Shown: positions 13,840 through 41,430 of the stretch, in pieces
How positions within the stretch are numbered: position 1 is the stretch's first letter
Layout: each line of letters opens with the position of its first letter
NCBI RefSeq assembly: GCF_001424665.1
Contig: NZ_LMQS01000002.1
Location: 558,001-622,000 of the forward strand
Length of the DNA: 64,000 nt
From: Methylophilus sp. Leaf416
GTDB taxonomy: Bacteria > Pseudomonadota > Gammaproteobacteria > Burkholderiales > Methylophilaceae
Direction of reading: 5' to 3'
The notes under the pieces: generated by a model
Told to the model about the DNA's origin: nothing
What the model saw: only the letters and a program-made list of their open reading frames with translations
The model's database searches: none
Position numbers and translations under genes: made by a program

Positions 13840-13956
13840 CCCACTCTTCATTTTGTATTTATCCAGCCGTTATTTTACGAAATATTGACGCATTTGGCTT
13901 TTAGTTTTTAAGTGCTGTTTTAGGTTGTCATCCAATGGTCATGGCTGTGCGTTAAA

Positions 13957-14154: not shown

Positions 14155-14340
14155 ATGCAAATTGTAGAGTCTTACCAACAAGCTTCGTCTATTCATTTTT
14201 TAACGGACGAAATTTATTCACCAGGCTTAAATACTGCTGCTGATGTGAGTGCTTCAAAAGCTTCGCTTAAAGCTCAGGAACATAAAAAGGCCATTCTCGA
14301 GTTACATCGTTTTCTGGAATCCAGTTGCGATTGCGTTTAA
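14155..14340 (+). CDS. Small hypothetical protein, 61 residues
   Basis: A short frame with an ATG preceded by AAAGGAAAAA at a usable distance. It encodes a 61-residue soluble protein that is helical in its second half (KASLKAQEHKKAILELHRFLE) and ends SSCDCV, with two cysteines close to the C-terminus. It sits alone between thiS and gnd in a gap of about 720 bases and is followed after 140 bases by an intrinsic terminator. I do not recognise a family. Codon use is unremarkable, and it could be genuine or a chance frame. Confidence 0.45.
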   Translation: MQIVESYQQASSIHFLTDEIYSPGLNTAADVSASKASLKAQEHKKAILELHRFLESSCDCV

Positions 14341-26287: not shown

Positions 26288-27352
26288 ATGAGCCAACTGC
26301 AAAACGATACCTTTTTACGCGCACTGCTGCGCCAGCCAACCGACTATACACCGGTATGGATGATGCGTCAGGCAGGCCGCTATTTACCTGAGTATCGGGA
26401 AAGCCGTAAAACGGCAGGCAGCTTTATGCAGTTGTGCCAAAGCCCGTCGTTTGCCACTGAAGTCACCTTGCAGCCACTGGATAGATACCCGCAGCTGGAT
26501 GCCGCAATTTTGTTCAGTGACATCCTGACTGTGCCGGATGCCATGGGCCTGGGTCTTTATTTTGAAGAAGGTGAAGGCCCGAAATTTGAGCGTACCTTGC
26601 AGGCTGAGGCCGATATCCTCAAGCTTGAAATTCCGGATATGTCTAAACTGCAATATGTGTTTGATGCAGTGAGCAGTATCCGCAAGGCACTGAATGGCCG
26701 TGTGCCACTGATTGGTTTTTCCGGCAGCCCGTGGACACTGGCGACCTATATGGTGGAAGGCAAAGGCGGTACGGACTTTTTAAATACGAAGAAAATGGGC
26801 TATGCCAGGCCGGAACTGCTACACCGCATTCTGGAGATTACTGCGCAGACAGTAATCCAGTACCTGAATGCACAGATTGCCGCAGGCGCACAGGCAGTGA
26901 TGATTTTTGATTCCTGGGGCGGCGCGCTGTCACACAACGCCTATACTGAATTTTCACTCAACTATATGCGGAAAATTGTCGCCGGCCTGACCAAAACTGC
27001 CGAAGGCCGACAAGTACCTTGTATTGTTTTTACCAAAGGTGGGGGCTTGTGGCTGGAAGCCCAGGCAGCCATTGGTGCAGATGCCCTTGGCCTGGATTGG
27101 AGTATGGATGTAGGCAATGCCCGCCAGCGGGTTGGCAACAAAGTCGCACTGCAAGGCAATATGGACCCGGCGATTTTATTGAGTTCACCAGCAGCGATTG
27201 AAAAAGAAGTGGCTAGCATTCTGGCCAGTTACGGTCACGGCAATAGCCATGTATTCAACCTTGGCCACGGCATCACGCAATGGACCCCGCCTGAACATGC
27301 AGCCTGTATGCTGGAAACCGTGCGCAAGCTGAGCCCGCAATATCACCAGTAA
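26288..27352 (+). CDS. hemE: Uroporphyrinogen decarboxylase
   Basis: Decarboxylates the four acetate side chains of uroporphyrinogen III to give coproporphyrinogen III in haem synthesis. The signature [16 protein letters not shown] (residues 22-37) is complete, as are [18 protein letters not shown] and the C-terminal NLGHGI. The frame is open 11 codons upstream, but the ATG at 26288 gives the standard N-terminus ([14 protein letters not shown]) and 354 residues. It is the last core gene before the accessory island, whose left inverted repeat begins 21 bases after its stop. Confidence 0.97.
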
Positions 27353-27407
27353 ACTGTTAGATTAAAAAAACAATATAAAAAAATCCCGCTACGCAATGAG
27401 CGAGGCG

Positions 27408-27436
27408 TTCAAATAAAGTGTTGGTACTGTTAAAAT
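27408..27436 (+). promoter_or_regulatory. Promoter-like sequence inside the left repeat
   Basis: TTCAAA (27408-27413) and TAAAAT (27431-27436) are 17 bases apart, and TG precedes the -10 as TGTTAAAAT, an extended -10. It points into the island, towards the transposase-like gene. Confidence 0.4.
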
Positions 27437-27437
27437 C

Positions 27438-27466
27438 CCCCCTAGAACCTTAGGGGGATTTTTTTT
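27438..27466 (+). terminator. Terminator hairpin at the inner edge of the left repeat
   Basis: Stem CCCCCTA / TAGGGGG, loop GAACCT, then A and eight T residues. It would stop transcripts entering from hemE and also those from the promoter-like sequence just upstream, before the transposase-like frame. Confidence 0.85.
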
Positions 27467-29225
27467 GGCTTCACAAAGGATACATAGAGTTCCGATCGCC
27501 TACCATGAGCTGCAAGTGAATTGCTGCAGAAATGTGCTGTGTGAAAATTTCGGAAAAATCCCTATTTTTGTTTTATCTGGCAAATATAAATTTGCCAAAT
27601 CTGAGTCCTATCTAATTATCGGTGATAAGAGTCAAGCTAAGTTGCAATGCAAGTTATGTAAAGCATTCACAAGACTTAAAAGTAACAAGGGTGTTTATGA
27701 AGAGTTAATCCGAATTCGCGGAGACTGGTTAGGTGACCAAGCTAGTGAAATGTTAGCCTGTCCTAAACAAGGTTGCGATGCCACTGGAACGGATTTTATT
27801 ATTCGGCATGGAACAACTAAATCTGGTTCCATTCGCTATAGATGCAAGCAATGTGGTACAACGTTTGTGCCTTCACCGAGGAAGAATCGTAAACAAAAAA
27901 AGCCTGAAATTACCGAGCTAGTTTTTCGATTACTGATCAATAAAATGCCCATGAGGCGCATTTGCGAAACTGCGGACATTCAACCTGCAACCCTCTATAG
28001 CAAGATTGATTTGATACATAGATGCTGTATTAACTTTGCCTACGCGAAGGAGCTGGTTTGGCGTCAACAACCAGCCGTTGATAGGGTTTATCTTTCCCTA
28101 GATCGCCAGGAGTATATTTTTAACTGGGGAACGCAGCTTGACAGGACTAATACTAGTCTTACTTCGATTACGAGTGTAGACAATCGAACGGGTTATGCCT
28201 TTTCGTTGACTCTGGACTTTGACCCAACACTTAACGCGGATCAAATAGAGGCGGAGGCCGTCAAGATAAATGACTATGATTTACCATACCCTTATCGCAA
28301 CTTTGCCAGACTTTGGATGTTAAGAGACTATTCAGATGAATACATTCTATCCAATAGGCTGGAAAGACATAACACACTCGGCACTAGTGGAGGAGAGACG
28401 GCGCAAAAATATCGCGACATGCTTAATGCAAAGAATGCATCTGACACTGAAGTCATAGAATTACCTAGTGGCAGGCGTCCGTCGCAAGGGATGCAGGTCC
28501 GCTCTGACTACGCCTTGTATGGGCACTTGTTCTTTTTGGAGGAAATGCTGCGAAATGTGTCAAAGGTAAGATTTTTCATGGACAGGGAAACCGGTGTATT
28601 TCCTGCATTTGCAGCGGCATTCGGCCCGCGCATTATCGAACGCACTGCTGATGCATTTTTCGTACGCATGAAGAAAAGCTTATCAGTAGACAAGAAAAAA
28701 CTCCTTAAGGCGGCCGCACAAACAAGACTAAATAAGTGGGTGGACGAGCATCCCGAATTTGATGGCCAAAATGCCGTGCACCATGTTTTGCGTGAAATAT
28801 TGGATTCAGCGATATCACAAGGTAGCTTGAATGGGGAGTGGATCATGCACCCGCTTTCAGATATGGCGGAGCCTAACAAAGAAGTTGCATACTTAACAGA
28901 TCTCGGTGGCTATGACCTTGACCACCTCGCTCACCTCTACAATATGGCCAGTTTGAAAGGGGTTGACCGTTTCTTGATGCTAATTCGACGTAGACTATCT
29001 CTATTCGAAAGGCCAATTCATACAGCGAATGCACAGAACCGCAGCTGGTATGGTTACAGTGGGTACAATCCAGCGGTGGGTGCGAAGCTGCTAGCCATCT
29101 TCAGGACGGCCTATAATTACTGCTTGCCAGGAGATGATGGGAAAACACCTGCGATGCGTGTCGGAACCTGTGACCATGTTGTTACCCTGGGTGAGGTGCT
29201 GGGCGAGTTTAACTCAAAACCCTAA
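27465..29225 (+). CDS. Zinc-ribbon DDE-type transposase-like protein
   Basis: A protein of about 586 residues with two N-terminal zinc ribbons (first: CC at 20-21, C26, C62, C65; second: C99, C104, C127, C130), a helix-turn-helix at about 153-190, then a catalytic-like core. D213 (SLDRQEY) lies before a beta-hairpin with VDNRTGYAF, D373 (FFMDRE) is the likely second acid, and the C-terminal part VDRFLMLIRRRLSLFERP resembles the conserved helix after the last catalytic residue in IS1/IS1595-type transposases. The third acid is not certain. No ATG fits: the frame can start at TTG 27465, in the T-run of the terminator, or at GTG 27516, which would cut into the first zinc ribbon. The gene abuts the left repeat, as a transposase gene would. 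Confidence 0.6.
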   Translation: MASQRIHRVPIAYHELQVNCCRNVLCENFGKIPIFVLSGKYKFAKSESYLIIGDKSQAKLQCKLCKAFTRLKSNKGVYEELIRIRGDWLGDQASEMLACPKQGCDATGTDFIIRHGTTKSGSIRYRCKQCGTTFVPSPRKNRKQKKPEITELVFRLLINKMPMRRICETADIQPATLYSKIDLIHRCCINFAYAKELVWRQQPAVDRVYLSLDRQEYIFNWGTQLDRTNTSLTSITSVDNRTGYAFSLTLDFDPTLNADQIEAEAVKINDYDLPYPYRNFARLWMLRDYSDEYILSNRLERHNTLGTSGGETAQKYRDMLNAKNASDTEVIELPSGRRPSQGMQVRSDYALYGHLFFLEEMLRNVSKVRFFMDRETGVFPAFAAAFGPRIIERTADAFFVRMKKSLSVDKKKLLKAAAQTRLNKWVDEHPEFDGQNAVHHVLREILDSAISQGSLNGEWIMHPLSDMAEPNKEVAYLTDLGGYDLDHLAHLYNMASLKGVDRFLMLIRRRLSLFERPIHTANAQNRSWYGYSGYNPAVGAKLLAIFRTAYNYCLPGDDGKTPAMRVGTCDHVVTLGEVLGEFNSKP

Positions 29226-30094
29226 CTGACTTCCCCACCTATTTTATATCTCTCAGCTAAGGATGGGTTTTTAAGAGCAATAAATGGTGAGTGCGCATCT
29301 TTATCCAATCTCAACCAGTACAAAAAATATGGGACGAGACATCGTTTCATAGTGGTTTCCCACACGAACTCATTTTGGATGGCTTTCATGCCATATTCGC
29401 TAGCAATGACACGAGCCTGATTGACTGATAACGAAGCTGATGGAATCACTTCGACCAGCTCTTCCTGATGCCATTCGACATCATTTTTAGTGTCCTGGGG
29501 GCATTTTACCTTAGAGGCTTTAGCTGTCAGTATCCTCTGCAAAACAAAATCACCAAAACACTCACGTAAACTATCATACGCCCTGACGTGCCATCTTAAT
29601 CCGGCATAGACCAACGCATGCGGCCATAAAGTGCGTTCTCTTGGCGCTTCATGCGACATGGATTGATAACGAATTTTGAGTCCATGTCCCTGGCGCAAGG
29701 CTCTTGTGATTTCTCTGAGGACAGCCGCATCGATTTCGGATTTTGGTACGGGCAATCCAGTTGCTACTATGCCATCACCAATTGCTGATAAAACTGCAGT
29801 CGAGTGTCCCTCTACATGGGTGCGCAATAATGAAAGGTACTCATCAGCAGAGCCCGTGCCAATATATGGGCGGAATTTCCTGCTTGGCCGATAACTTCGA
29901 GCACTCACATCATAGTCTAATTGATCTGGGAAGGCCTTCCTATATAGGCTAAAGTCCTGCGTGATGTGATTCTCGGAAACATCAAAAACAGAGGATATTC
30001 TTTTTCTTCCGACCAATCCCTCCCAATACGCAACAGACTCTATGTACTGTAAACGTTGACGTTGGGCGAAACCTATGTGGTCTATACTGTGCAT
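29222..30094 (-). CDS. WYL-domain transcriptional regulator (BrxR/CapW-like)
   Basis: A 290-residue regulator with an N-terminal winged-helix part (RKRISSVFDVSENHITQDFSLYRK, about residues 30-53), a WYL-type beta-barrel in the middle (LKIRYQSMSHEAPRERTLWPHALVYAGLRWHVRAYD, split here across 154-190) and a C-terminal WCX-like extension. This architecture is that of the BrxR/CapW family, which represses BREX, CBASS and other phage-defence operons and is thought to respond to a nucleic-acid-related signal. It is divergent from the methyltransferase gene, with two inverted repeats in the shared promoter region. Its 3' end overlaps the convergent transposase-like gene by four bases. Confidence 0.82.
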   Translation of the reverse strand: MHSIDHIGFAQRQRLQYIESVAYWEGLVGRKRISSVFDVSENHITQDFSLYRKAFPDQLDYDVSARSYRPSRKFRPYIGTGSADEYLSLLRTHVEGHSTAVLSAIGDGIVATGLPVPKSEIDAAVLREITRALRQGHGLKIRYQSMSHEAPRERTLWPHALVYAGLRWHVRAYDSLRECFGDFVLQRILTAKASKVKCPQDTKNDVEWHQEELVEVIPSASLSVNQARVIASEYGMKAIQNEFVWETTMKRCLVPYFLYWLRLDKDAHSPFIALKNPSLAERYKIGGEVS

Positions 30095-30103
30095 GCCAAG
30101 GCA

Positions 30104-30133
30104 ATATTACACCACATTTTTCATGTGTTACAA
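30104..30133 (-). promoter_or_regulatory. Candidate promoter of the WYL regulator
   Basis: On the minus strand TTGTAA (30128-30133) and TAATAT (30104-30109) are 18 bases apart. The predicted start is within a few bases of the ATG at 30094, so the transcript would be leaderless or nearly so. Confidence 0.4.
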
Positions 30134-30150
30134 CTATTATAATTAACACA
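30124..30150. promoter_or_regulatory. Operator-like inverted repeat 1
   Basis: TGTGTTA and TAACACA are separated by 13 bases in the divergent region. The left arm overlaps the candidate -35 of the regulator, which suggests autoregulation. Confidence 0.45.
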
Positions 30151-30160
30151 CTATTATTAA

Positions 30161-30189
30161 TTGACCTACATGTTTTATGTAGGTATTAT
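30161..30189 (+). promoter_or_regulatory. Promoter of the methyltransferase operon
   Basis: TTGACC (30161-30166) and TATTAT (30184-30189) are 17 bases apart, a good sigma-70 promoter. The predicted start is near 30196, only just before a short leader frame. Confidence 0.65.
30165..30183. promoter_or_regulatory. Operator-like inverted repeat 2, in the promoter spacer
   Basis: CCTACAT and ATGTAGG enclose GTTTT and occupy the space between the -35 and -10 of the methyltransferase promoter. A bound repressor would block RNA polymerase directly. Confidence 0.55.
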
Positions 30190-30196
30190 TTACCCT

Positions 30197-30232
30197 ATGA
30201 ATGCCCCATCCATTAACGGATTATTGGAATGA
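30197..30232 (+). CDS. Possible 11-residue leader peptide
   Basis: A short frame, MNAPSINGLLE, starts at or next to the predicted transcription start and ends in TGA that overlaps the methyltransferase ATG (ATGA). If translated, ribosomes would be delivered to the methyltransferase start, which otherwise has only a weak ribosome-binding site. No comparative support is available. Confidence 0.3.
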   Translation: MNAPSINGLLE

Positions 30233-33200
30233 CTGCGCCTCATATCACGCGATGGATTGATGCGCTTGGATATTCTGCCGCAGGAGTTTCGGCTTATCTG
30301 CAGCCTGGCGATGCCCCGGCAGATCATCCGTATGGACGCGAGATTGATATATTGCTGGGCGACTTAACATCGACAAGTGATGCAGCAGTCATTGATATTG
30401 AACAAACACCAACCATATTATTTGTCGATGCTAGCCAGCAATCCAATCCCCTGGATCATAATCAGATATTAAAATTGCGGCAGCATATCTGGAATCAGAA
30501 CCTAGTTTCAATCATCATCAGCATCGATGGCGATCATGCCGACGTGTTTCCCGTGACTAATAAACAAAGTGACGGTCAGCGCTACTATTTATCGGATTTG
30601 CATGAATCTGGCCCACTTTCCTTCACTGATATTGCGACCGGGAATATCCAGCAACGACTGCCCAACTGGTTCGACATCGATTCAAGAGTAGACCGCGAGT
30701 TGCTGCATAACCTTGGCCTGACTTTGCAAAAGATGGAATTGCAAAAAATCCCGCGCTCCGAATCCCAACTTATCCTTGGGCGAGTATTATTCGTGTCTTA
30801 TCTTGAGCATCGCGGCATTATTGGCAATTACTACAAAAAACAGCGCAATGTTGATTCTTTGCATGCCTTAATTCATCAAAGAAATCGAGAAGGCCTACGG
30901 ACTTTGTTCAAGTCATTAAAGAAAGATTTTAATGGCGACTTCCTCGAAGTAGAGGGCGAGACTCATATTGAGTGGAATGAAATTGCGGATAGCACTTTCA
31001 TGTTGCTGGACGCATTTCTTTCAAGAGTCAGTATGGAAACTGGTCAAACCAGTCTATGGAATTATGATTTCCGTTACATCCCAGTGGAACTTCTGTCCGG
31101 AATTTATGAGACCTTCCTGAATGAGGAAAAGCGAGCCAATGGGATTTATTACACGCCAAGACACTTGGCGAATCTTGCAGTTGATCTTGCCTTCCTGGAC
31201 AAGGCTCATCCGGAAAATGAAGTCGTCTACGATGCGGCATGTGGCTCCGGCATTTTACTGACCACGGCCTTTCGCCGAATGCTGCGTTCTGCTGAACACC
31301 GGCATGGGGATGTACTACCGATTGATAAACGAATCGACTTGCTTCTGGCGCATATTCGCGGTTCCGATTTGAGTGAAGCCGCCTGCAGAGTGACTGCATT
31401 CAGCTTGTACCTCGCCCTGATGGAAGATATTGCACCTGCAGACATTGCCCGGCTTTGTGATGATGCTAACGTAAAGCTTCCGCCACTGCTGGGACGAATA
31501 TTAATTGGTAGCACTGAAGGCGACTTTTTTAACAAGGGCAATAAGGTCGCTACGAAGGCACCCGAGGACGTCACAATCTTGCTTTCAAACCCGCCTTGGG
31601 GCGAACCAAAAGGCAACGACTCCCATTTATACGAAAGTTGGGCTGCAGAGTACAAGCTTAAGTTACCGCACAGAAACATAGCTGCGGCATTCGCTCACAA
31701 GGCAATAAAATCTGTCACCGCCAATGGCAGAGTGTGCCTGATTTTACCCGTTAAGTTATTTGCTTCAGATACCAGCCGTGACTTCTTGCATCAATGGATT
31801 TCTTCAATCCAAATCAAGCGCATCATCAATTTTTCTGATATTCGTCGGCTTTTATTCCCAAGTGCTATCCATCCCTGCGTTGTCGTTATTGGGGATGTGC
31901 GTGACCCATCAAATCTCGGGAGAATTCCAGCCCGTGAAATGATTGAGGTATGGCATGCCAAAGCGGATGTCAGCCTTGCATTTGGGCGATTGAGTGTCCA
32001 TGGCATTGATCGCCACACCATTCTGGCTTCACGCCTTGCAGATGATCCTGAAACATTCAGGGCTTCGACTTGGGGAATACAGTCAGACAGAGCAGTGATT
32101 GGTCGGCTTAGATTGTTTGGTGTACTTTCTGATCTGTTAACTGGAAAGCCAGCCAGATGGCAGCTTATCAAAGGATTCAATCAGACCCGTCATAGCTCAG
32201 AAAAACTGGACCCAGGCTTTCTCAAAAGCATGCGGTTTCTTGATACAAGAAACATCAGTAGAGAATTGCCTGTTCTGGATAATTCTATACTTGAAGAGTT
32301 TCCGGAGAGCATCACTTCAGTCGTATCACGTGGCAGCCAAAATGGTGCGGCATTCCATGGCGCAAGAGTATTATTTCCAGATGGCGCTGCCAGCAGTTTT
32401 AATGCTTATGCCATTTTTGCAAAGGGCGACTTCTGCTTCCGTCACACTTTAGCCGCACTCTGCGGCCCTGATGAAGATGAGGATATCTTGCGCTTTGTCG
32501 CAGTTTATCTCCGATCTCCATTGGCGGCATACTGCTTACTACACAATGCCTATGCTCTGACCTCAGAACGCACGCGAATAACCTTGGACGAAATCGAGTC
32601 ATTGCCATTTGCACTGCCAGAGCGGACTGGTAATCCAGAGAAAGCATGGAAAATCATCCATCACGTTGCGGATTTAACACGTGAAATTGAAACGATTGAT
32701 TTTGGGCGGGAAGAGTATTGGCAGAATCTCTCTCCGAAGATCAACAAACTGGTATATCAATATTTCGGCGTAAGCGAGAGAGAACTACCGCTAATCGAAG
32801 ATGCTTGCAATGCATTGATTCCAAGTGTTCAGCCCGGTACATATAAAGACATCCGGACTCCATTATCTGGTAGCCCTAGGCCACATGAAGTATCTGCATA
32901 TTTTGAGCGCCTGACATCCGAGTTATGTCTATGGCGCGACCGTATGGGTGGTCACGGCCAACTTATGACCTTTAATGATGCATCCCATGCCCAGAATAAT
33001 GCTGCAATCGGAATAGCTACGGTCGAACTAGTTGGACAATTGGAGCAAACTGAAGCCAAGGTTTCGAGGTCCAGAGTAGTGAATACCATGGAGTCGATTC
33101 GTGATGCAGGACTATGGCCAATGCAAGCCACGCGTGATTTGGCGTTATCCTCCGACTTCCTGATTTATGATGGTCCGCGAATTCATATTGTTAAACCTAT

Positions 33201-33285
33201 GGTGAGACGATATTGGCTCGAGAGACAAGCTTTTGATGACGCACGACGTATTGTCGAAGCCATAGGTGTTGCAACTCATGGATAA
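30229..33285 (+). CDS. N6-adenine DNA methyltransferase (large, restriction-modification type)
   Basis: A 1018-residue methyltransferase. An N-terminal region of about 300 residues precedes the core: SAM-binding motif I DAACGSG at 335-341 and catalytic motif IV NPPW at 454-457, the gamma-class adenine N6 arrangement of HsdM and type IIG enzymes. After the core, residues of about 620-830 look like a target-recognition region (FNQTRHSSEKLDPGF, then DTRNISREL), and the last 150 are helical. There is no helicase and no PD-(D/E)XK motif in this chain. The nuclease gene overlaps its end by eight bases, so the two probably form one restriction-modification unit. PglX-like and type I HsdM relatives are alternatives, but the usual partner genes are absent. 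Confidence 0.82.
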   Translation: MTAPHITRWIDALGYSAAGVSAYLQPGDAPADHPYGREIDILLGDLTSTSDAAVIDIEQTPTILFVDASQQSNPLDHNQILKLRQHIWNQNLVSIIISIDGDHADVFPVTNKQSDGQRYYLSDLHESGPLSFTDIATGNIQQRLPNWFDIDSRVDRELLHNLGLTLQKMELQKIPRSESQLILGRVLFVSYLEHRGIIGNYYKKQRNVDSLHALIHQRNREGLRTLFKSLKKDFNGDFLEVEGETHIEWNEIADSTFMLLDAFLSRVSMETGQTSLWNYDFRYIPVELLSGIYETFLNEEKRANGIYYTPRHLANLAVDLAFLDKAHPENEVVYDAACGSGILLTTAFRRMLRSAEHRHGDVLPIDKRIDLLLAHIRGSDLSEAACRVTAFSLYLALMEDIAPADIARLCDDANVKLPPLLGRILIGSTEGDFFNKGNKVATKAPEDVTILLSNPPWGEPKGNDSHLYESWAAEYKLKLPHRNIAAAFAHKAIKSVTANGRVCLILPVKLFASDTSRDFLHQWISSIQIKRIINFSDIRRLLFPSAIHPCVVVIGDVRDPSNLGRIPAREMIEVWHAKADVSLAFGRLSVHGIDRHTILASRLADDPETFRASTWGIQSDRAVIGRLRLFGVLSDLLTGKPARWQLIKGFNQTRHSSEKLDPGFLKSMRFLDTRNISRELPVLDNSILEEFPESITSVVSRGSQNGAAFHGARVLFPDGAASSFNAYAIFAKGDFCFRHTLAALCGPDEDEDILRFVAVYLRSPLAAYCLLHNAYALTSERTRITLDEIESLPFALPERTGNPEKAWKIIHHVADLTREIETIDFGREEYWQNLSPKINKLVYQYFGVSERELPLIEDACNALIPSVQPGTYKDIRTPLSGSPRPHEVSAYFERLTSELCLWRDRMGGHGQLMTFNDASHAQNNAAIGIATVELVGQLEQTEAKVSRSRVVNTMESIRDAGLWPMQATRDLALSSDFLIYDGPRIHIVKPMVRRYWLERQAFDDARRIVEAIGVATHG

Positions 33286-33991
33286 CCAAGATGATAAAAT
33301 TGCTGCATATGGCAGGCTGGCTCCCGCCTGGAATCAAGTTTATCCTGATGACGAATTCGGCAAAGTAGCTAAGTTTATTCAAGATCAATGGGTGAAAGTA
33401 GTCAGCCATAGGCCGGTGCACTTTCATCTAGGCAGCCATGAGAGCAAGCTGACCAAATTCTTTAATAGCATCCTTGAACAATTCAAAAGCGAAGCGGGCT
33501 TTATTGGCCATTTCACCAGTGAAGCAGTACATGGGGTTCCTGATCTTGAGCAGGGCTTATTGATGGATGAGCGACGCACGGATATCAGGTATTTATCCTC
33601 ACGTAGTGACCTGACAGTTACTTTTGAGTTTAAGAAACTAAAAGACAATCGTGATAGCAGACTTAAGTACTATGGTAAGAGTGGTGTATTACGCTTTGTA
33701 GAGGGCCATTATTCCAAAGAAAACTCTATAGGTGTGATGGTGGGCCTAGTGGGTAACAATTTCCCAGCTACTGTAACCAGCTTGCAGCGTGCTTTTGCCA
33801 TGACTGGAACCCATTCGCTTTTGCATATGATTCCTTGCCCACAAGGCAGGTATGTCCGGGACCCTTCAGATGCACTGCCAAGCATTGCTACCTTTGATAC
33901 TGAGCATTCCAGAGCTGTTTATGATGGGCGGCCTGAAATCCTTCTGTGCCATATGTTTCTCAATACACCGGACGCTAAACCTAAAACCTAA
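33278..33991 (+). CDS. Putative PD-(D/E)XK restriction endonuclease
   Basis: A 237-residue protein whose ATG lies within the methyltransferase stop region (eight-base overlap), implying coupled translation. It shows a PD-(D/E)XK-like arrangement: E54 in the helix SHESKLTKFF, D102 in RRTDIRYL, then E117-F118-K119 in LTVTFEFKK after a hydrophobic strand. This spacing and the strand context fit a restriction endonuclease-like fold. There are no other recognisable domains. An earlier GTG (33266) would add four residues. The function as the cleaving partner of the upstream methyltransferase is inference from position and motif. Confidence 0.65.
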   Translation: MDNQDDKIAAYGRLAPAWNQVYPDDEFGKVAKFIQDQWVKVVSHRPVHFHLGSHESKLTKFFNSILEQFKSEAGFIGHFTSEAVHGVPDLEQGLLMDERRTDIRYLSSRSDLTVTFEFKKLKDNRDSRLKYYGKSGVLRFVEGHYSKENSIGVMVGLVGNNFPATVTSLQRAFAMTGTHSLLHMIPCPQGRYVRDPSDALPSIATFDTEHSRAVYDGRPEILLCHMFLNTPDAKPKT

Positions 33992-34141
33992 GTATTGACC
34001 AGATTTACTGTCTTGCCCATAAATTGCACTGAGCTCTAAGTTGGACGACTTTCGCATTTAGCAAATAATGCAATTGCATCATCGCAATATTTGCAATCGC
34101 CCTGGCAACAGTCATGCATTAAAAAAGCCACTAAACAGATA

Positions 34142-34321
34142 GTGCTGTCACAAGAAGGATTTCAATTATCGTCAACTGAATCATATATCACTTACATAGA
34201 TGAAGACCTCGAAGACTGGGATGCGGTTTGGGATGGAATGAAGCAACATCTCGAGGCCTTAGACGCGCCAGAGCAATTGGAACTTGCTCTATTGAGTGCA
34301 ATTTCCTCGTCTTTTGCATAG
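34142..34321 (+). CDS. Doubtful small acidic protein
   Basis: A 59-residue frame from a GTG; a longer form from TTG 34091 is also open. The protein is acidic (YIDEDLEDWDAVWDGM) and helical, with no family I recognise. It occupies part of the 449-base gap between the nuclease and the acetyltransferase operon; the rest of that gap shows no gene or clear signal. The acidity recalls antitoxins or inhibitors, but that is weak. Confidence 0.3.
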   Translation: MLSQEGFQLSSTESYITYIDEDLEDWDAVWDGMKQHLEALDAPEQLELALLSAISSSFA

Positions 34322-34440
34322 CATTAAGGGATATACAACTTCATCAAAATGGTGATGACGATTGGGAATTAATTGACCAATAATGGTGTTATAGTGGTAA
34401 AAATATCTATCAAATAAAATACAACAAATATGGGTGCTGC

Positions 34441-35499
34441 ATGCGCAATCTTACTTACTGTGAGTTTGGAGATGTTGATTTAGGTGACAAATTTTTTGAT
34501 TCCTTAAAAGCGGATTACCCAAAATTTGTTGGCTGGTTTAATACTAAAGCCGCCTCTAAAGAAAAGGCTTATGTTTTTTACCGAATCAAAGACAATATTG
34601 ATGGTTTTTTGTATTTGAAAATCGAAGAAGGTGAGGTTAATGAAGTCATTCCTCCCTTACCCAATGGTAAACATCTTAAGGTTGGCACTCTAAAGATTAA
34701 CGCTCACGGTACAAAACTGGGCGAAAGATTTATCAAAAAGCTATTGGACTACGCTGTCTTGCAAGATGTAGATGACATATACGTAACAGTATTTGAAAAA
34801 CATGCTCCGTTAATTGATCTTTTAACCCGCTATGGATTTGTGCAAGTTGGCATTAAGAAAAACGATCAAGGTGAGGAGATTGTTCTTGTTCGTGATATGT
34901 CAGTTACAAGTGGGGACATATTAAAAGATTACCCATTCATCTTACCCAATCAGGGTGATCCTTATTTGTTAGCAATTTGGCCAAAATACCACACAAAGTT
35001 TTTGCCAGATTCTAAGTTGAATAATGAATCATTTGATATCTTAGAAGATGTCTCACATACAAATAGTATCCATAAAGTTTATATATCTGGAATTCCAGCA
35101 ACTGGAAAACTAAAACAAGGCGATATTTTAGTACTTTACCGAACCACCGATAAATCGGGAAAAGCTTATTTTAGGTCTGTTGCAACGTCTATATGCGTTG
35201 TACAAGAAACAAGAAAAGTGAATAGCTTTGGAACATTTAAGGAATTTATTAAATATGTAAAACCATACAGTGTGTTTAGTCATGAAGAACTGAATGAGTA
35301 TTACACAAAAAAAGCTAAATATAATGTGATCAAGTTTACGTACAATGCCGCTTTGGTAAAAAGAGTAATTCGTAAGTTGTTGTTGGAAGAAGTTGCTGTT
35401 TCGGTCCAACCAAGGTGGGACTTTAGAAAATTGTCAAATAAGCAACTTGAAAAAATTATTAGTATTGGAAGTCTAGATGAAAATTTTATTGTCGATTAA
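34441..35499 (+). CDS. GNAT acetyltransferase fused to a PUA/ASCH-like domain
   Basis: A 352-residue two-domain protein. Residues 1-152 form a GNAT fold with the acetyl-CoA loop in HGTKLGERFIKKLLDYA (89-105) and a final strand YGFVQVGIKKND. Residues of about 165-350 form a second domain with mixed strands (LLAIWPKYHTKFLPD, KVYISGI, KLKQGDILVLYRT) that resembles the PUA/EVE/ASCH group of modified-nucleic-acid binders; this part is less certain. The gene overlaps the following ASCH gene by 23 bases. Its GNAT part shares the YPKFVGWF / G..ERF pattern with the third gene of the operon, so the two are probably paralogues. It is AT-rich compared with its neighbours. I infer a role in modification of RNA or protein. 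Confidence 0.7.
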   Translation: MRNLTYCEFGDVDLGDKFFDSLKADYPKFVGWFNTKAASKEKAYVFYRIKDNIDGFLYLKIEEGEVNEVIPPLPNGKHLKVGTLKINAHGTKLGERFIKKLLDYAVLQDVDDIYVTVFEKHAPLIDLLTRYGFVQVGIKKNDQGEEIVLVRDMSVTSGDILKDYPFILPNQGDPYLLAIWPKYHTKFLPDSKLNNESFDILEDVSHTNSIHKVYISGIPATGKLKQGDILVLYRTTDKSGKAYFRSVATSICVVQETRKVNSFGTFKEFIKYVKPYSVFSHEELNEYYTKKAKYNVIKFTYNAALVKRVIRKLLLEEVAVSVQPRWDFRKLSNKQLEKIISIGSLDENFIVD

Positions 35500-35884
35500 A
35501 CCTGAGTTTGCCCTTAAGATTTTGAATGGGGACAAAAAATTTGAGTTCAGAAAATCAGCATTTGCGAATGTAGGTGCGACGTGTGTAGTTATATATGCCA
35601 CTAAGCCACTGGGAATGATCATAGGCGAGTTCGATGTCTCTGAAGTTTTTATAGATGCACCAGAAAATATATGGGAAAGAACAAAAAAATTCGCAGGTAT
35701 AGGTAAAGTCAAATTTGATGAATATTATTTAGGTAGAGAGACTGCCGTTGCATTAGTAGTCGGTGAGGTGAGAAAGTATGACGTCCCTTTAGAGCTCGGT
35801 GACCTAGGCGAAAAGATTACTCCACCTCAGTCATTTAGGTACTTGAATGAATCATTTCAACATGCACAACTCCAACTAATTTAG
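35477..35884 (+). CDS. ASCH-domain protein
   Basis: A 135-residue single-domain protein. The N-terminus LLSIKPEFALKILNGDKKFEFRK is the ASCH signature (S-x-K-P near the start, G-x-K then E-x-R-K; residues 5-26), a PUA-like fold that binds RNA or modified bases. One ASCH family member, E. coli YqfB, hydrolyses N4-acetylcytidine; whether that activity is shared here cannot be judged from the sequence. It overlaps the upstream acetyltransferase by 23 bases and precedes another acetyltransferase by ten, so the products probably work together. Confidence 0.8.
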   Translation: MKILLSIKPEFALKILNGDKKFEFRKSAFANVGATCVVIYATKPLGMIIGEFDVSEVFIDAPENIWERTKKFAGIGKVKFDEYYLGRETAVALVVGEVRKYDVPLELGDLGEKITPPQSFRYLNESFQHAQLQLI

Positions 35885-35894
35885 AATTTACATT

Positions 35895-36392
35895 GTGAAA
35901 ACTATTTTTCTAAATCAAGAGTTATTACTTAATGCACCAGAGTACGCAGAATTGCTCGTTGATGAATCGAGAAAGATGCTCCTCGATATGTCTAACTATT
36001 ATCCGAATTTTACGGATTGGTTTGATCAAACGGTGATTCCTGGGCTTGAGTCTGGTGAACGTACTATCATCTTGCTTAAAGATATGAATAAGCCTATTGC
36101 TGGGCTTGGTATTGTTAAAGATACCCTAGAAGAAAAGAAATTATGCTGCCTAAGAGTTAGAGACCAATACAACGGGTCTGGCCTAGGGGTTCGTCTATTC
36201 AAACATTCATTTGCTGAGCTTGGTACTGACATGCCGTTATTGTCAGTTTCTTCTGAAAAACTACCAGAGTTCAAACGTGTTTTTGATTATTTCGGGTTTG
36301 AATTCGGCGAAGAATATACGGGAATTTACAGGCCTAAGAAAAAAGAGATGAGCTTCAATGGTGAGCTCCTAAACACTAAATACTCATTTTGA
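35895..36392 (+). CDS. GNAT acetyltransferase (second of the operon)
   Basis: A 165-residue GNAT protein starting at GTG. The motif-A loop is LRVRDQYNGSGLGVRLFKHS (86-105), and YFGFEFGEEYTGIYR forms the C-terminal strand. It shares several local patterns with the N-terminal domain of the first gene of this operon (YPNFTDWF versus YPKFVGWF). No N-terminal targeting signal is present. It ends in a nine-base convergent overlap with the membrane-protein gene. Substrate unknown. Confidence 0.78.
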   Translation: MKTIFLNQELLLNAPEYAELLVDESRKMLLDMSNYYPNFTDWFDQTVIPGLESGERTIILLKDMNKPIAGLGIVKDTLEEKKLCCLRVRDQYNGSGLGVRLFKHSFAELGTDMPLLSVSSEKLPEFKRVFDYFGFEFGEEYTGIYRPKKKEMSFNGELLNTKYSF

Positions 36393-37580
36393 TTTAAGTT
36401 TAGTCAAAATCTGAATAACTTTGTCCAGTGTTGCGTTGTATCGGCTACTACGCTGCAACGCAGCAAAGATACTGGGGCTAAAAATTGCTAGCATTCCAAG
36501 TGCTATAACTCCAATTATCAACCAGTAATCTTTGTTGGTAGCCTGATGGGGATCAGATAGTATTTCCCATAGACCATTCCCTGCCATACCAAACCCTAAG
36601 CCTAAAAATATAAATCTGCAAATATGTAAAATTCCGGAACTGGTTTCAGAGAATCTACCAAGTGCCACTAAGTCTTTGACTGGATAGTTTTCATCTTGGA
36701 TGTTGGACTTGGTCCATTGATAACCTAAATAATTCCGTACTGAATCTCTAACATCCTTATCAGAATCGGAATGGCTTTCAACGTAATAATTCCATATTTC
36801 CTCATCTGTTAAAGATCTGCAGCCCACAAAGTTCTGGCCTTGAAAAATACACTCCTGATTTCTATTGATTGTTAGAAAGAAATGAATTTTCTTTAGTGGA
36901 GGAAATATCACTTTGTCACTGTTGATTAGCAACTCTTTAGGGATGCCTCTTCTGACGTTGATTCGAAAGTCAACTATTCTTGTACTTACGTAAGAGCTCA
37001 AAATATTACTATCGGGCTGGCAAAAAATGGACTGATAAAAATTTCTTGGAATGTTGATGATTCGAAAACGGACGTAAAGTCGATCAATATTTTCTTTATA
37101 AATCTCATAAGGCTTTAAAGCTGGAATCTTAATTTTTAAATTTGTAATTTCATCTTTAGTGGAGAGATTGGTATAGGAGATAGTGATGTCTTGTGGAGCT
37201 AATCTCAATAATAAAAATTTATTTTGAATCGCGGTCGACTGATTCGCTATGTCCTCTGCATTCTTTAACAAGTGAACTAAAGCTATATTGGTATCGGCTC
37301 TCCCATTGTATTGAACCGATTCATTAAAAATAGCAGCAATACTTTGCTCACTATTTAACGATGTTCCTAAATCATAGACATTTGAGTCATCCAGTCTCCA
37401 AGGAATAGTAATTTCAATTGAATCAATTTCTTTCCACTGAGAAATCATTAGACCCATATCAATAAATGGCTTTCCGATTTCCCATAAATTGATATGAAGC
37501 TCATCTAATGGCTTTATAGGCTGTGTGAAGCCATCCTTAAGATGATATCTAATTAAAATTCCGGTGAATGTTTTATCCAT
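36384..37580 (-). CDS. Membrane protein of unknown function, paired with a P-loop kinase
   Basis: A 398-residue protein. Residues 1 to about 310 look soluble and beta-rich, with no family I recognise. The C-terminus has two transmembrane helices (FIFLGLGFGMAGNGLW and WLIIGVIALGMLAIF) and a short basic tail. The gene begins six bases after the P-loop kinase gene on the same strand, so they form a two-gene unit. A large soluble sensor or effector domain anchored by a two-helix membrane hairpin is common among abortive-infection effectors, but this is inference. It is very AT-rich compared with the core genome. Confidence 0.7.
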   Translation of the reverse strand: MDKTFTGILIRYHLKDGFTQPIKPLDELHINLWEIGKPFIDMGLMISQWKEIDSIEITIPWRLDDSNVYDLGTSLNSEQSIAAIFNESVQYNGRADTNIALVHLLKNAEDIANQSTAIQNKFLLLRLAPQDITISYTNLSTKDEITNLKIKIPALKPYEIYKENIDRLYVRFRIINIPRNFYQSIFCQPDSNILSSYVSTRIVDFRINVRRGIPKELLINSDKVIFPPLKKIHFFLTINRNQECIFQGQNFVGCRSLTDEEIWNYYVESHSDSDKDVRDSVRNYLGYQWTKSNIQDENYPVKDLVALGRFSETSSGILHICRFIFLGLGFGMAGNGLWEILSDPHQATNKDYWLIIGVIALGMLAIFSPSIFAALQRSSRYNATLDKVIQILTKLKSK

Positions 37581-37585
37581 GTGAT

Positions 37586-38113
37586 CTATTCTTTTAGAAG
37601 ATTATTGACCGCTTCATTGAAATCTTTTTGGGATGGGCTATTTAATTTTATAAGTGGTATTTCTATCTTTTTACAAATATATTCGGCACGCGCACGCTCT
37701 TTTGAGAAAAATAAGTCTAAATCCACTTCAGCAGAAATACCATCACGGTTCATTAATCTCTCCGTAACTGTCGGTAAATCAGTTTCTATTAATATGCATG
37801 CAGAAAATTTGGCTTGAACAAAAATGTTTTCAGGCACACATTCAAACTCATTTGCTGACTTCAATAAAACAAAATGACCATCTAAGAGAAGAAGTTCATT
37901 CCCTTGAAATCTTTTCAATGCCTCCAACAAGGCTGTTTGATTACGATCGATATCAGAAACATATTTATCTGCTCCCCAATTTTCAACTTTTAGCTGCTGC
38001 TTTATCAATTGGCTGGCTGATGAATGAATCGCATTTTCATGTTCATTTTCAGAATAAGCCTTACATAAATAAGATTTTCCTACTCCATGAATGCCCGCCA
38101 CAAATATAATCAT
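37586..38113 (-). CDS. P-loop NTPase of the kinase type
   Basis: A 175-residue protein with a perfect Walker A, GIHGVGKS, next to the N-terminus after one strand, and a Walker B-like LLLLDGHFV near the middle. The helix with RLMNRDG and KERARAEYICKKI is like the lid region of adenylate- or shikimate-type kinases. The start at the ATG 38113 is chosen over a TTG at 38125 because GAAG lies at a good distance upstream. The gene is directly followed by the membrane-protein gene. Its substrate cannot be read; a small nucleotide or nucleoside is plausible. Confidence 0.78.
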   Translation of the reverse strand: MIIFVAGIHGVGKSYLCKAYSENEHENAIHSSASQLIKQQLKVENWGADKYVSDIDRNQTALLEALKRFQGNELLLLDGHFVLLKSANEFECVPENIFVQAKFSACILIETDLPTVTERLMNRDGISAEVDLDLFFSKERARAEYICKKIEIPLIKLNSPSQKDFNEAVNNLLKE

Positions 38114-38248
38114 TTTTATCTTCAATTAATATGTTTTGCAAGTATAGTAATCTAAATTGTTAATTATTGAACCTTTCAAATCAAGGTTGTGTGAAATCTT
38201 TTAGCTGATGTTATCGTCAGTCCTTAATTGTAAAAGTTAGAGTATCCA

Positions 38249-38758
38249 ATGCATCGACCAGAAGAGCATGATCACTACTTAGATTTCGAACAGATCAAAA
38301 GGAACGCATTTGTCCTTTTGAATCTTGGCTATGGGTTAAATCGGCTTTTAGAAGACGGGGAAGGTGATGTTGCGTACAGAAAAGATTCCGCATTATTTCG
38401 TGAGTACGGGAAGATGTATGAAAGCGAGATTTCAACTCGGTTATTGAGCGCTGCCGTAACAGCAAGAGTTTTAGATGACAAGCTGATTAATTCAAAATCA
38501 GATGGTACGGCCACCAAATTTCCTCACGGAGAATATATGCTTGGTGATGACGAGAATGGTGAACCTATCAACTTAAGGCAGTGCTTCAATAAAATCATTC
38601 ACGCCTCCCGGATTTACCACGAGTTAATGCAACTCCCAGAGGTTTATTTGTCTGGCAAACAGCAAAATGAAAAGGAATGGCATATCCGGCTATTCTTATT
38701 GCCCTTCTGTACGGCGTTATATCAATGGGTCGATCATTATCAACGCGACCACACTTAA
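38249..38758 (+). CDS. All-helical protein of unknown function
   Basis: A 169-residue soluble protein that appears all alpha, with a long central helix (SEISTRLLSAAVTARVLDDKL) and the segment LRQCFNKIIHASRIYHEL. The NKIIHA pattern, with an arginine a few residues before it, recalls HEPN-type helical bundles (R-x-H), but the spacing is seven rather than four to six, so this is only a suggestion. It is divergent from the P-loop kinase unit and upstream of the antitoxin-like gene. No family is recognised. Confidence 0.65.
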   Translation: MHRPEEHDHYLDFEQIKRNAFVLLNLGYGLNRLLEDGEGDVAYRKDSALFREYGKMYESEISTRLLSAAVTARVLDDKLINSKSDGTATKFPHGEYMLGDDENGEPINLRQCFNKIIHASRIYHELMQLPEVYLSGKQQNEKEWHIRLFLLPFCTALYQWVDHYQRDHT

Positions 38759-38850
38759 CAGAGGTACAATAAAATTTCAACGCTATACTTAGATGACAAG
38801 TCTACTTAGTTGCGTAAGGTAGCAACACTCTTTATTTAAGGAGTTCACGG

Positions 38851-39057
38851 ATGAACAGTGAAAGTCTTTCTTTAAGCTGGGGGCGTATACGTTCTTTAGC
38901 AATTGATACATTTAGTTCTGAGGCAAAAGCAGATGCATGGCTCAATAAACCTCACACAATATTAGGGAATACTCCGATTGCTACTGCCGAATCATCCTAT
39001 GGGTACGCAGAGGTTGAGAGAATGCTTCACGCTATTGGCTTTGGTGGAACTGTTTAA
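38851..39057 (+). CDS. Solitary MbcA/ParS/Xre-type antitoxin domain
   Basis: A 68-residue protein consisting almost only of the toxin-binding domain of MbcA/ParS/Xre antitoxins (DUF2384): EAKADAWLNKPHTILGNTPI, then YGYAEVERMLHAIGFG. In known systems this domain neutralises RES-domain NAD-degrading toxins. No RES gene lies beside it, and the N-terminal Xre helix-turn-helix is missing. The strong AAGGAG nine bases before the ATG shows that it is meant to be translated. It may be an orphan antitoxin that protects the island or the host, or a relic. Confidence 0.75.
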   Translation: MNSESLSLSWGRIRSLAIDTFSSEAKADAWLNKPHTILGNTPIATAESSYGYAEVERMLHAIGFGGTV

Positions 39058-39100
39058 GCAATCTACAATCATTTGATTTTGAAATTACGGATGCGTGAAA

Positions 39101-39319
39101 ATGAACTATCAAAGCAAGAAACCTAAATCGCCTTCCATTACGCCCTCGACCGCAAAACTCATGCAACTGCGGGCTGGTAAGGGGCTTGGAATGTTGAGCC
39201 AGGAAGAAATCGAATTATTACGAAAAAGTAAGAAGGAGATTTCTGAAATGTGCAGGAAGTATTCAAAATTAATAATCCAGAAATCAGATAAGTTTATCGC
39301 TAAAGTTATGCCGCGGTAG
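39101..39319 (+). CDS. Small basic hypothetical protein
   Basis: A 72-residue lysine-rich protein with the helical segment SQEEIELLRKSKKEISEMCRK. It begins 43 bases after the antitoxin-like gene on the same strand and may be its partner, though it shows no toxin motif. No family is recognised; the frame could start two codons earlier at a GTG. Confidence 0.4.
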   Translation: MNYQSKKPKSPSITPSTAKLMQLRAGKGLGMLSQEEIELLRKSKKEISEMCRKYSKLIIQKSDKFIAKVMPR

Positions 39320-39363
39320 TACTCTTTTTCTGAAAAAGCTCATGCTAAACTCCAAAGGAAAAC

Positions 39364-41127
39364 TTATCCTTTAAACCGGTTTTTTTGCACATCTAAAATG
39401 TTTGTACCGATCAGGCCAATTGCCTCAGCGTAGTTATGAATCATTTGTTGGCCTTGCTTAAGGTAAGACAAATCTTGGTCTATGCCAGCCAGTTTTATAG
39501 CGTCATCAATTTTGGAGCTTGTCGGGTGTGCATCACCATTTCGCATGTCATATACGCCAATAATCACTCCGAAGAGTTCACGTGCTTTATCAGGCCCAAT
39601 TATTTGCGTCAAAATATCTTCAAGAAGCTTGATCGAGCCCAGTTCCTTATTGCGAGCATGGGTACGAAGTCCTGGAATATTCAATCGATCAGAAAATACC
39701 CGAACTAGTTCTTTAGCAAGTCTTAATAATGAGGGCTTATCTTTGCTAGCAAAACGAGAAACGACCTTTAACGTTTCTATTATATTAATGGGATGGTTAA
39801 AAAGTGGTGTTTTGTATTTTACTAAAAATGCATGTTCAACCATCTCTAGATTTTCAATCAGCAAATTTTCTGCCGCTTTTGTTTTCGCTGCCCTACCTTG
39901 AGCATGAGCTAAAAGTAGCTCTTTTGAAACCTTACCTTCTGGGACGATACTTTGCGCTGCCCAGATTGCTTGTTCCCAGGGTTCAAGACGGGGAATATCG
40001 CACCCATAAACTGAAACCAAATCAGAACCATTGAGTCCGAAATGAGTTGCACGATCCGACGTTGAGCAAATACCACCAGTTTCCGCTGTATACCATTGCA
40101 ATGAAAAGCCCCGGTGTCCCAGTAAGTGATTGATGATTTCCGGCTTAAAAAATAGCCATCTGCCAATATCCTCGTCGTTTAGTTCAGCAGAGGTCATTCT
40201 TTTAGCATCTGTCTCTACGACAAATGAAGGAAGTTCCGTATTCACATCTCCACGAACTCGGATACTTTGACCTTTGTGTTCAATCCATTCTTCTCGTCTA
40301 AACTGACTTTCAATACGAACCCCTTTGAATCCAGATATATACCCTCTAGTTTGTTCGGACTCGGTGTTGTCATTGGTTTCTGGACCCATCACAGGTGCAT
40401 CTTCTTCACCATCAACGTCGGTACGCCCCACGCGGAATGTTGCAAAGGTACCGCCATAAACAGAGTCCAGCGACCGAATGATTAGTTCGAAATGCCCTCC
40501 GTCCCTTGCTTCCTCAAGTGAAACTAACCCTTGGTAAGGGCTCCCTTTTAAAGAAGGTACATTTTCTACTCGCATGCGAAACGTGGCCATACGAAGTGAT
40601 AAATTTCTGGCAGCTAGATAATCCATTAAAAATTCTCGTTTGATTTCGATTAAGTAATGATTACCCTCTGAATCGACCCTCTCTCGAGCAACTTCTGTGA
40701 AATCTTCTACAGGCCTGACCCAACTATTGCCTTCTTTTATTAGATCTAGTGCGACCACAAGATCCGGGTTAAGTATCCAATGGCGTTTACCGATCACAGA
40801 CTGAATGTGCTCAAAAACAAGCTCAACTCCGATGGTTTCATCATTGTATTGATAGTGATCAATGGGAGTGTACCTACCATCCGAATGTACATATGGATCC
40901 GTACGATGACCACCTAAATCATTAAAATCTAACCGGTTCCCAATCTTTATATATTCAGGATGAATAGCAGCTGTACCTACCCCTAAATATTCCTCTAGAT
41001 AGCCAATTTTTTGTACATCACCTTCTTGGTCAGGAACGGATGCTCTTAATGGCACCCATGTGGCAGTAGAGTAAACACGTCGTGTCTCACTAGCTTGTAA
41101 TATCCAGTCTTTATTCTTTTTACACAT
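39364..41127 (-). CDS. Large protein with a C-terminal HEPN-like domain
   Basis: A 587-residue soluble protein. The first 400 residues are beta-rich with WYL- or fold-like pieces I cannot name. The last 190 are helical and contain RNGDAH at residues 529-534, an exact R-x4-H motif as in HEPN ribonucleases, in the context YDMRNGDAHPTS, which is typical of the active-site helix of that superfamily. A large N-terminal sensor with a C-terminal HEPN domain is the layout of several anti-phage proteins such as ApeA, but I see no clear ApeA homology. The gene stands alone on the minus strand at the right end of the island. Confidence 0.6.
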   Translation of the reverse strand: MCKKNKDWILQASETRRVYSTATWVPLRASVPDQEGDVQKIGYLEEYLGVGTAAIHPEYIKIGNRLDFNDLGGHRTDPYVHSDGRYTPIDHYQYNDETIGVELVFEHIQSVIGKRHWILNPDLVVALDLIKEGNSWVRPVEDFTEVARERVDSEGNHYLIEIKREFLMDYLAARNLSLRMATFRMRVENVPSLKGSPYQGLVSLEEARDGGHFELIIRSLDSVYGGTFATFRVGRTDVDGEEDAPVMGPETNDNTESEQTRGYISGFKGVRIESQFRREEWIEHKGQSIRVRGDVNTELPSFVVETDAKRMTSAELNDEDIGRWLFFKPEIINHLLGHRGFSLQWYTAETGGICSTSDRATHFGLNGSDLVSVYGCDIPRLEPWEQAIWAAQSIVPEGKVSKELLLAHAQGRAAKTKAAENLLIENLEMVEHAFLVKYKTPLFNHPINIIETLKVVSRFASKDKPSLLRLAKELVRVFSDRLNIPGLRTHARNKELGSIKLLEDILTQIIGPDKARELFGVIIGVYDMRNGDAHPTSSKIDDAIKLAGIDQDLSYLKQGQQMIHNYAEAIGLIGTNILDVQKNRFKG

Positions 41128-41344
41128 TTATTAATCTACGTTCTTATTGGAATAAATTTGATGAAAGCAATATAACTTTAAGTACTGAATGTGTATATGT
41201 CTAAACAGTTAGAATTTTTTTGAGTGACCTTGTCTGGGTATTAGGCATATCTTTTATGCTAGTTAAAACAAAAATACCGATTATTCAGAACTCTTACAAA
41301 ACACATTTTTGCAGCTCATGAATGGGTGGCTATGACTTTGGGAA

Positions 41345-41430
41345 GAAAAAATCCCCTAAAACTCTAGGGGGCTTTAACAAAACCAACACTTTAGTTGAAC
41401 GCCTCGCGCAATGAGCGGGATTTTTTTATA
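41345..41430 (-). repeat. Right inverted repeat of the island
   Basis: Reverse complement of 27374-27468 with small gaps. Its hairpin (CCCCTA / TAGGGG at 41353-41370, T-run on the minus strand) faces into the island and would end transcripts from the cytochrome gene outside. The rest of the 315-base gap before the cytochrome gene shows nothing else. Confidence 0.85.
41346..41372 (-). terminator. Terminator inside the right repeat
   Basis: Six-base-pair GC-rich stem, six-base loop and a minus-strand T-run; it insulates the island from outside transcription as the left copy does. Confidence 0.75.

Follow-up and report, generated by a model that had tools for sequence, protein, structure and literature searches.

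The window analysed here, a stretch of 64,000 nucleotides (nt) from Methylophilus sp. Leaf416 (assembly GCF_001424665.1, contig NZ_LMQS01000002.1, positions 558,001-622,000, forward strand), contains two neighbouring genes encoding an N6-adenine DNA methyltransferase of 1018 amino acids (aa) and a 241-aa protein with a predicted PD-(D/E)XK-type active site. They are read, with a probability of roughly 0.7, as encoding the two subunits of a regulated restriction-modification system that resembles a Type IIG enzyme split in two and is carried on an IS1-like transposon. In this system, the 1018-aa protein would recognise a DNA motif and methylate an adenine in it, and the 241-aa protein would provide the cutting site. 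As the latter leaves little space for its own recognition domain, it most likely docks on the methyltransferase, and it would cut DNA carrying the unmethylated motif, restriction being the likely mechanism. A divergently encoded WYL protein would bind an inverted repeat in the promoter of the methyltransferase gene and repress the operon; self-cutting would thereby be limited and induction made possible. These genes, a second gene pair (PDC-M11, a phage-defence candidate of PADLOC) and other cargo make up a single transposon of 14,006 bp, whose IS1-like transposase duplicates 9 bp of the target and which here landed in an intrinsic terminator.

The methyltransferase and the linked nuclease-type protein

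Relatives were compared in numbered stretches from plasmids, contigs, viral contigs and genomes (L002-L064). The count covers 25 loci (the window, L002-L008, L012, L014-L016, L018-L021 and L038-L046), to which five more distant ones (L047-L051), chosen from the 39 weaker rows (H40-H78) of the methyltransferase search, were added for a total of 30. The small open reading frame (ORF) lies directly 3' of the methyltransferase gene in 29/30 loci (24/25 and 5/5), in the same order throughout and mostly with the two genes overlapping or touching; in the window the overlap is 20 nt from GTG 33266 and 8 nt from the in-frame ATG 33278. The 19 loci retrieved with the methyltransferase alone were taken separately, since this avoids selection by the partner itself, and 18 of them have the partner. 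All 13 of those outside the seeds of the partner profile match it (E 3.5e-83 to 9.3e-5; 4.6e-15 to 7.8e-10 with filters off). When 3295 ORFs, overlapping loci included, were scanned with this profile at a threshold of E 1e-4, every match adjoined a methyltransferase ORF except the one in L009; in L014 the partner runs past the contig end. The adjacent pair recurs in Alpha- and Gammaproteobacteria, and by this comparison of sequences it is the conserved core, while the trio that includes the WYL gene is not a fixed system.

The four residues E59, D106, E121 and K123 of the 241-aa protein, with the spacing D106-X14-E121-X-K123, are identical in all 29 partners aligned by MAFFT, together with W42, T63, F144, M158 and H229. 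Alignment of the 29 with hmmalign kept D106, E121, K123, F144 and M158 in every partner and E59 in 28, the remaining one (L044) being gapped. Since all four residues are invariant in 29/29 partners, some of which are only ~16-20% identical to the window's protein, the E..D..ExK pattern lies beyond chance; 13 of the 29 had played no part in building the profile that found them. Judged from these residues, the small ORF has a PD-(D/E)XK-type active site. Existing annotation labels it 'hypothetical protein' or 'Fis family transcriptional regulator'.

The large protein scores 55.1 bits against Pfam N6_Mtase, with Eco57I matched as well, in library scans (Pfam and PADLOC) that covered the ten ORFs of Table 1 between 27465 and 41127 other than the 169-aa one. 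Of 21 aligned relatives, at least 20 retain each of D335, C338-G341 (DxxCGSG) and N454-W457 (NPPW). The two motifs follow in this order, with ~560 more residues C-terminal to them, and this last part is the predicted recognition region by the Type IIG layout; residues 616-750 were poorly modelled. The PADLOC model PDLC03623, labelled 'Type IIG', covers residues 7-1010 at 745 bits and matches 9/9 aligned members, the window's included. Foldseek ranks BpuSI, a Type IIG enzyme, first (E 2.9e-11 over 996 columns, at a template-modelling score of only 0.31-0.35), and also lists MmeI and DrdV. VIA-align of the methyltransferase core placed CamA best (Z 19.8), along with Type I M subunits, MmeI, BrxX, BpuSI and DrdV.

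The first 140 residues of the methyltransferase are conserved as a region and modelled as an alpha/beta domain (helix 36-44, strands 52-57 and 60-67, helix 77-90, strand 95-100; predicted local distance difference test, pLDDT, ~76), which sits where Type IIG enzymes carry their nuclease. A conserved D..ExK set is absent from this N-terminus across the 21 aligned members. Within residues 1-150, conservation in at least 90% of the 21 is confined to W88 and N89, and no D or K there is shared among the 9 closest.

These results bear out much of an earlier note, made from the letters of this DNA, which had described a BrxR/CapW-like WYL regulator, a divergent large adenine methyltransferase gene and a small overlapping gene with an E..D..E-x-K arrangement. 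All three ORFs are open, the methyltransferase is recognised by family score and by motifs, and the four acidic and basic residues recur throughout the partners. The structure prediction proposed there for the small protein came out neither for nor against a nuclease fold, as its model reached a pLDDT of 42.

Methyltransferase relatives (E at most 1e-60) occur in 6/399 genomes of the order and 5/398 of the phylum, the strain's own genome being counted in both. Relatives of the small protein were found in 18 plasmid records, one Cellvibrionaceae contig (L002) and two viral contigs, and in 2/369 whole genomes of the class, own included; none was found in the phage collection. The contig search used a single sequence and exact peptide words, and for this reason yielded one relative only. 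In the two viral contigs (L012 and L016) the pair stands among ORFs that resemble terminase and portal genes by eye, suggesting carriage by prophages. In L048, a Sinorhizobium plasmid, an annotated Shedu immune nuclease gene (8301-9254) lies near the distant pair.

The regulator and its candidate operator

The WYL domain of the divergently encoded protein scores 50.4 bits (Pfam cut-off 21.8). Its closest solved relatives by phmmer are BrxR (7t8k, E 1.1e-34, residues 14-239) and CapW (7tb6, 9c5g and 7tb5), and a second match to a solved BrxR/CapW structure spans residues 7-263 at E 2.3e-32, so that the family named in the earlier note stands. A WYL gene divergent from the methyltransferase was found in 3/25 loci (the window, L002 and L038), and a 68-aa fragment of one also precedes the methyltransferase in L014; as the WYL profile was built from two seed sequences only, distant WYL genes could be missed. 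Upstream of the methyltransferase, 14/25 loci carry a MerR-like helix-turn-helix gene, seven of these loci having been seeds of the MerR-like profile. Such genes score 21.1, 12.1 and 21.7 bits against Pfam MerR_1 (cut-off 21.6), which is at or below that threshold. From these counts the regulator appears exchangeable.

The gap between the WYL and methyltransferase genes contains a perfect inverted repeat, which is a candidate operator covering the spacer of the only plus-strand promoter-like site in this gap. A scan of 27300-34500 gave 15 such sites against 14.2 expected, with no excess over shuffles, and the promoter is suggestive only. A repeat with arms of at least 8 bp and a spacer of exactly 5 occurs in 0.35% of 2000 shuffles. 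For comparison, BrxR operators are described in the available text of PMC9122601 as 10-11-bp repeats with a 5-bp spacer. The WYL protein may bind the candidate repeat and repress the operon.

A 14,006-bp transposon and its cargo

The genes lie within an element spanning 27401-41406, with matched terminal inverted repeats and the same 9 bp, CGCAATGAG, on both sides (Table 1). The two end regions align with a score of 111, part of which comes from terminator arms lying outside the element; among 2000 random pairs from the window the highest score was 28. The end sequence occurs only twice in the genome when up to 3 mismatches are allowed. The matched ends and target-site duplication leave the 14,006-bp transposon well supported as read from the DNA. 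The earlier note had overlooked this vehicle, and its interval of 29222-33991, which does hold the three genes, was too narrow for a 14-kb element with a linked fourth gene on the left.

Table 1. Predicted features of the element, with positions in the window
Positions	Strand	Feature	Basis
27392-27400	.	Left 9-bp target-site duplication, CGCAATGAG	
27401-27464	+	Left terminal inverted repeat, begins CGAGGCGTTCAAATAAAGTGTTGGT	
27465-29225	+	IS1-like transposase, 586 aa, zinc ribbons	
29222-30094	-	BrxR/CapW-like WYL repressor (predicted), divergent from methyltransferase	WYL domain; BrxR/CapW similarity
30161-30189	+	Promoter-like site TTGACC-17-TATTAT, spacer covered by candidate operator	
30164-30184	.	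Candidate operator, perfect 8-bp inverted repeat ACCTACAT/ATGTAGGT, 5-nt spacer	
30229-33285	+	N6-adenine DNA methyltransferase, 1018 aa, Type IIG-like; N-terminal alpha/beta domain without conserved D..ExK	
33266-33991 from GTG; likely start ATG 33278	+	PD-(D/E)XK-type nuclease subunit (predicted), 241-aa ORF	
34441-35499	+	PDC-M11A candidate defence protein, GNAT-like	PADLOC 464 bits
35477-35884	+	PDC-M11B, ASCH-like	PADLOC 153 bits
35895-36392	+	Weakly acetyltransferase-like ORF	Below Pfam cut-off
36384-37580	-	398-aa ORF	No family matched (Pfam, PADLOC, NCBIfam)
37586-38125	-	P-loop kinase-like protein	AAA_17 44 bits
38249-38758	+	169-aa ORF	ORF list
39364-41127	-	587-aa ORF	No family matched (Pfam, PADLOC, NCBIfam)
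41346-41406	-	Right terminal inverted repeat	
41407-41415	.	Right 9-bp target-site duplication	

The 586-aa protein scores 31.7 bits against NCBIfam IS1_IS1595_Zn (cut-off 28) and 41.4 bits against the IS1 transposase model, under that model's cut-off of 100. In its family D213, D253 and D373 are kept in 8/8 members and E469 in 7/8, a candidate acidic triad taken from the alignment. Plasmid relatives number 125 records at E 1e-5, of which six (L023-L028) were examined. L024 and L026 are insertion sequences of 2010 and 2043 bp, whose ends match and whose 9-bp duplications are exact; the version in L023 is 6082 bp long and has ends and no duplication, L027 has clear ends and no exact 9-bp duplication, and no ends were found in the stretches examined of L025 and L028. 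By eye, the ends of L023, L024 and L026 and those of the window are alike. Relatives of the protein occur in three other genomes of the class (4/340 with the strain's own), and none was found in 60 relatives searched (1/61 with own). In the Polaromonas plasmid L025, the relative is followed by genes for a large AAA-domain protein and an HNH nuclease (6956-14260), possibly another copy with cargo.

The neighbours of the element, taken to be hemE and a cytochrome b561, are adjacent (~55-170 bp apart) in 11/21 congeners. They are ~1.9 kb apart in 5/21 and at least ~100 kb apart in 3/21, and 2/21 are not comparable. The hemE-cytochrome gap thus varies between species, as the five congeners with the 1.9-kb gap (L060-L064) carry another gene there, encoding a membrane-protein-like product of 517-536 aa. 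Without the element, the insertion site reads as a terminator hairpin. The target of L024 is also a terminator hairpin and the flanks of L023 look similar; the target of L026 is not one. The element may still move.

The Cellvibrionaceae contig L002 carries the same four genes (from the 586-aa gene to the small ORF) in the same order at 39, 47, 41 and 36% identity, and its left end differs from the window's right end at 4/29 positions; up to the point where the contig stops, no right end was found. The four-gene unit has therefore been seen twice in this type of transposon. As the PDC-M11 pair is also aboard, the window's element is read as a mobile defence island.

Alternative readings and comparison with known systems

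Several observations weigh against the two-subunit reading. The AlphaFold model of the small protein, made with five sequences, reached a pLDDT of only 42, although with a strand and helix order compatible with PD-(D/E)XK. Nor did profile searches of the PDB find a nuclease, their best E being 0.77 with 8 sequences and 0.11 with 27. No match to the window's small ORF came from Pfam, PADLOC or NCBIfam. Among 16 members of its family PADLOC gave none at E 1, and four Pfam families (best E 0.17) and two of PHROGs (best E 0.07) were each matched by a single member. L009, a Rhizobium plasmid, holds a partner fragment without a recognisable methyltransferase; L015, the sole exception among the 25 loci, has a shortened methyltransferase and no partner. 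The methyltransferase is split over two ORFs in L004 and L005 and has lost its N-terminal half in L003, for which reason several plasmid copies look decayed. On the side of the regulator, the inverted repeat becomes modest once spacers of up to 12 count (5.25% of shuffles), and neither L002 nor L038 has a perfect inverted repeat of the window's size.

Structural matches of the small-protein model were set aside, since a pLDDT of 42 makes them unusable: those by Foldseek, to a secretion-chaperone complex and protein kinases, had a best E of 0.049, and the best by VIA-align had Z 5.3. In L003, a Pseudosulfitobacter plasmid, a MerR-like start (by eye) is joined to the C-terminal half of the methyltransferase (6364-7989) in a manner resembling an internal deletion, and the nuclease ORF is retained.

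Since the small ORF is free-standing, and since L009 has the partner fragment by itself, the nuclease could be a separate effector acting without the methyltransferase, for example in an abortive or DNA-degrading response, and merely share its operon. Adjacency in the same order in 29/30 divergent loci, mostly with overlapping or touching genes, argues instead for a shared function, and a separate effector is considered unlikely. Somewhat less likely still is that the large protein by itself makes a full Type IIG enzyme whose N-terminal nuclease is active, the small ORF being an accessory factor. PADLOC does call it a Type IIG restriction enzyme-methyltransferase, its N-terminus is modelled as an alpha/beta domain, and the DrdV and BpuSI alignments begin there. 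However, the alignment of PacII, a Type I M subunit, also begins in this domain, so that the structural match is not Type IIG-specific; the domain has no conserved D..ExK in 21 members, against four invariant catalytic residues in the partner, and hhalign detected no relation between the methyltransferase N-terminus and the nuclease family. For the latter reason the term 'decayed nuclease domain' rests on predicted topology and chain position.

The ends of the WYL and 586-aa genes overlap in both the window and L002, and this linkage to the trio in two distant genomes would suit a zinc-ribbon defence component rather than a transposase. Relatives of the 586-aa protein stand alone, though, with inverted repeats closely enclosing them and, for L024 and L026, exact 9-bp duplications as well; of the ends of the window's element, one lies just outside the gene and the other 12 kb off, so that a defence role for it is improbable; the 586-aa gene had been considered as a fourth defence gene until the terminal repeats were found. 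The least probable of the alternatives is a BREX-like or modification-dependent system, in which methylation would mark self and the nuclease, or an unseen host factor, would block replication or attack modified DNA. It would fit the best PglX model listed by PADLOC for the ten ORFs scanned (29.4 bits) and the occurrence of BrxR homologues, which according to PMC9122601 accompany BREX and Type IV systems most often. The survey in that paper also reports them beside diverse systems, restriction systems included. Against the BREX-like reading, these ten ORFs include no PglZ, BrxC or helicase, and there is a cutting site. DISARM consists of the DrmA helicase with DrmB and DrmC, and no DISARM match was listed by PADLOC for these ORFs.

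The earlier note's statement that the helicase, phosphatase and ATPase genes of BREX, DISARM or type I systems are lacking therefore holds for the ORFs scanned, and PADLOC gave no named system that the trio matches exactly. Its proposal of a minimal, regulated restriction-modification unit survives as far as a small unit is likely, although not as a fixed trio, given the counts of WYL and MerR-like genes. The 'little-known type' applies to the nuclease, which is absent from the libraries, and not to the methyltransferase, which PADLOC knows.

More broadly, the odds are about even that the pair represents a widespread, unnamed class of restriction-modification systems, whose Type IIG-like methyltransferase has lost its own cutting site and uses a dedicated nuclease subunit (of a family absent from Pfam, PADLOC and PHROGs, and from NCBIfam as searched with the window's protein) under interchangeable MerR-like or WYL regulators. 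Here it would be carried by an unrecognised family of IS1-related transposons of 2-14 kb, able to carry defence cargo and often inserting into intrinsic terminators. If so, what defence annotation counts as single-gene Type IIG enzymes are systems of two genes, the nuclease family among them has been overlooked, and nature supplies an experiment on the splitting of fused restriction-methylation enzymes, or on their origin by fusion. An IS1-like transposon that carries two defence modules would amount to a mobile defence island whose ends are exactly defined. No description of the pair as a class, or of the 14-kb transposon, was found in the available texts of the literature searched (including PMC9122601, PMC12839542, PMC11997821, PMC12707154, PMC4389544, PMC4081073 and PMC12255303), REBASE and ISfinder lying outside the comparison.

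Among known systems, the transposase resembles IS1/IS1595 in its zinc-binding N-terminal domain, above the NCBIfam cut-off, and in the 9-bp duplication of the window, L024 and L026, but transposases of the window's kind are ~520-650 aa long against 199 positions of the IS1 model, and one copy carries 12 kb of cargo. PDC-M11, both proteins of which are encoded at 34441-35884, is a separate cargo module outside the restriction pair. The regulator shares with BrxR/CapW similarity over most of the protein, divergent placement and an inverted repeat with a 5-bp spacer, and differs in standing beside a two-gene pair rather than BREX or CBASS.

The methyltransferase is like those of Type IIG enzymes (BpuSI, MmeI and DrdV; PDLC03623) in being an N6-adenine methyltransferase of similar size and motif order. 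Type IIG enzymes unite cutting and methylating domains in one chain, as stated in the available text of PMC4081073, whereas the only conserved cutting site found in the window lies in the second protein: the 21 methyltransferases have no D..ExK, and the catalytic set is in the adjacent ORF in 29/29 cases, as far as the sequences tell. As no conserved nuclease site was found in the methyltransferase chain, the pair may work like a Type IIG enzyme and yet fail its defining feature. The nearest published idea, among the literature searched, is the hypothesised split Type IIG pair HVO_A0006/HVO_A0237 of Haloferax volcanii, described in the available text of PMC4389544 as a 219-aa PD-(D/E)XK protein and a methyltransferase without the nuclease region. 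The PD-X14-E-X-K of HVO_A0006 has the same spacing as D106-X14-E121-X-K123, a likeness by description only. The two Haloferax genes are 231 genes apart and HVO_A0006 was deemed a fragment by its authors, whereas the window's type of pair is adjacent and recurrent.

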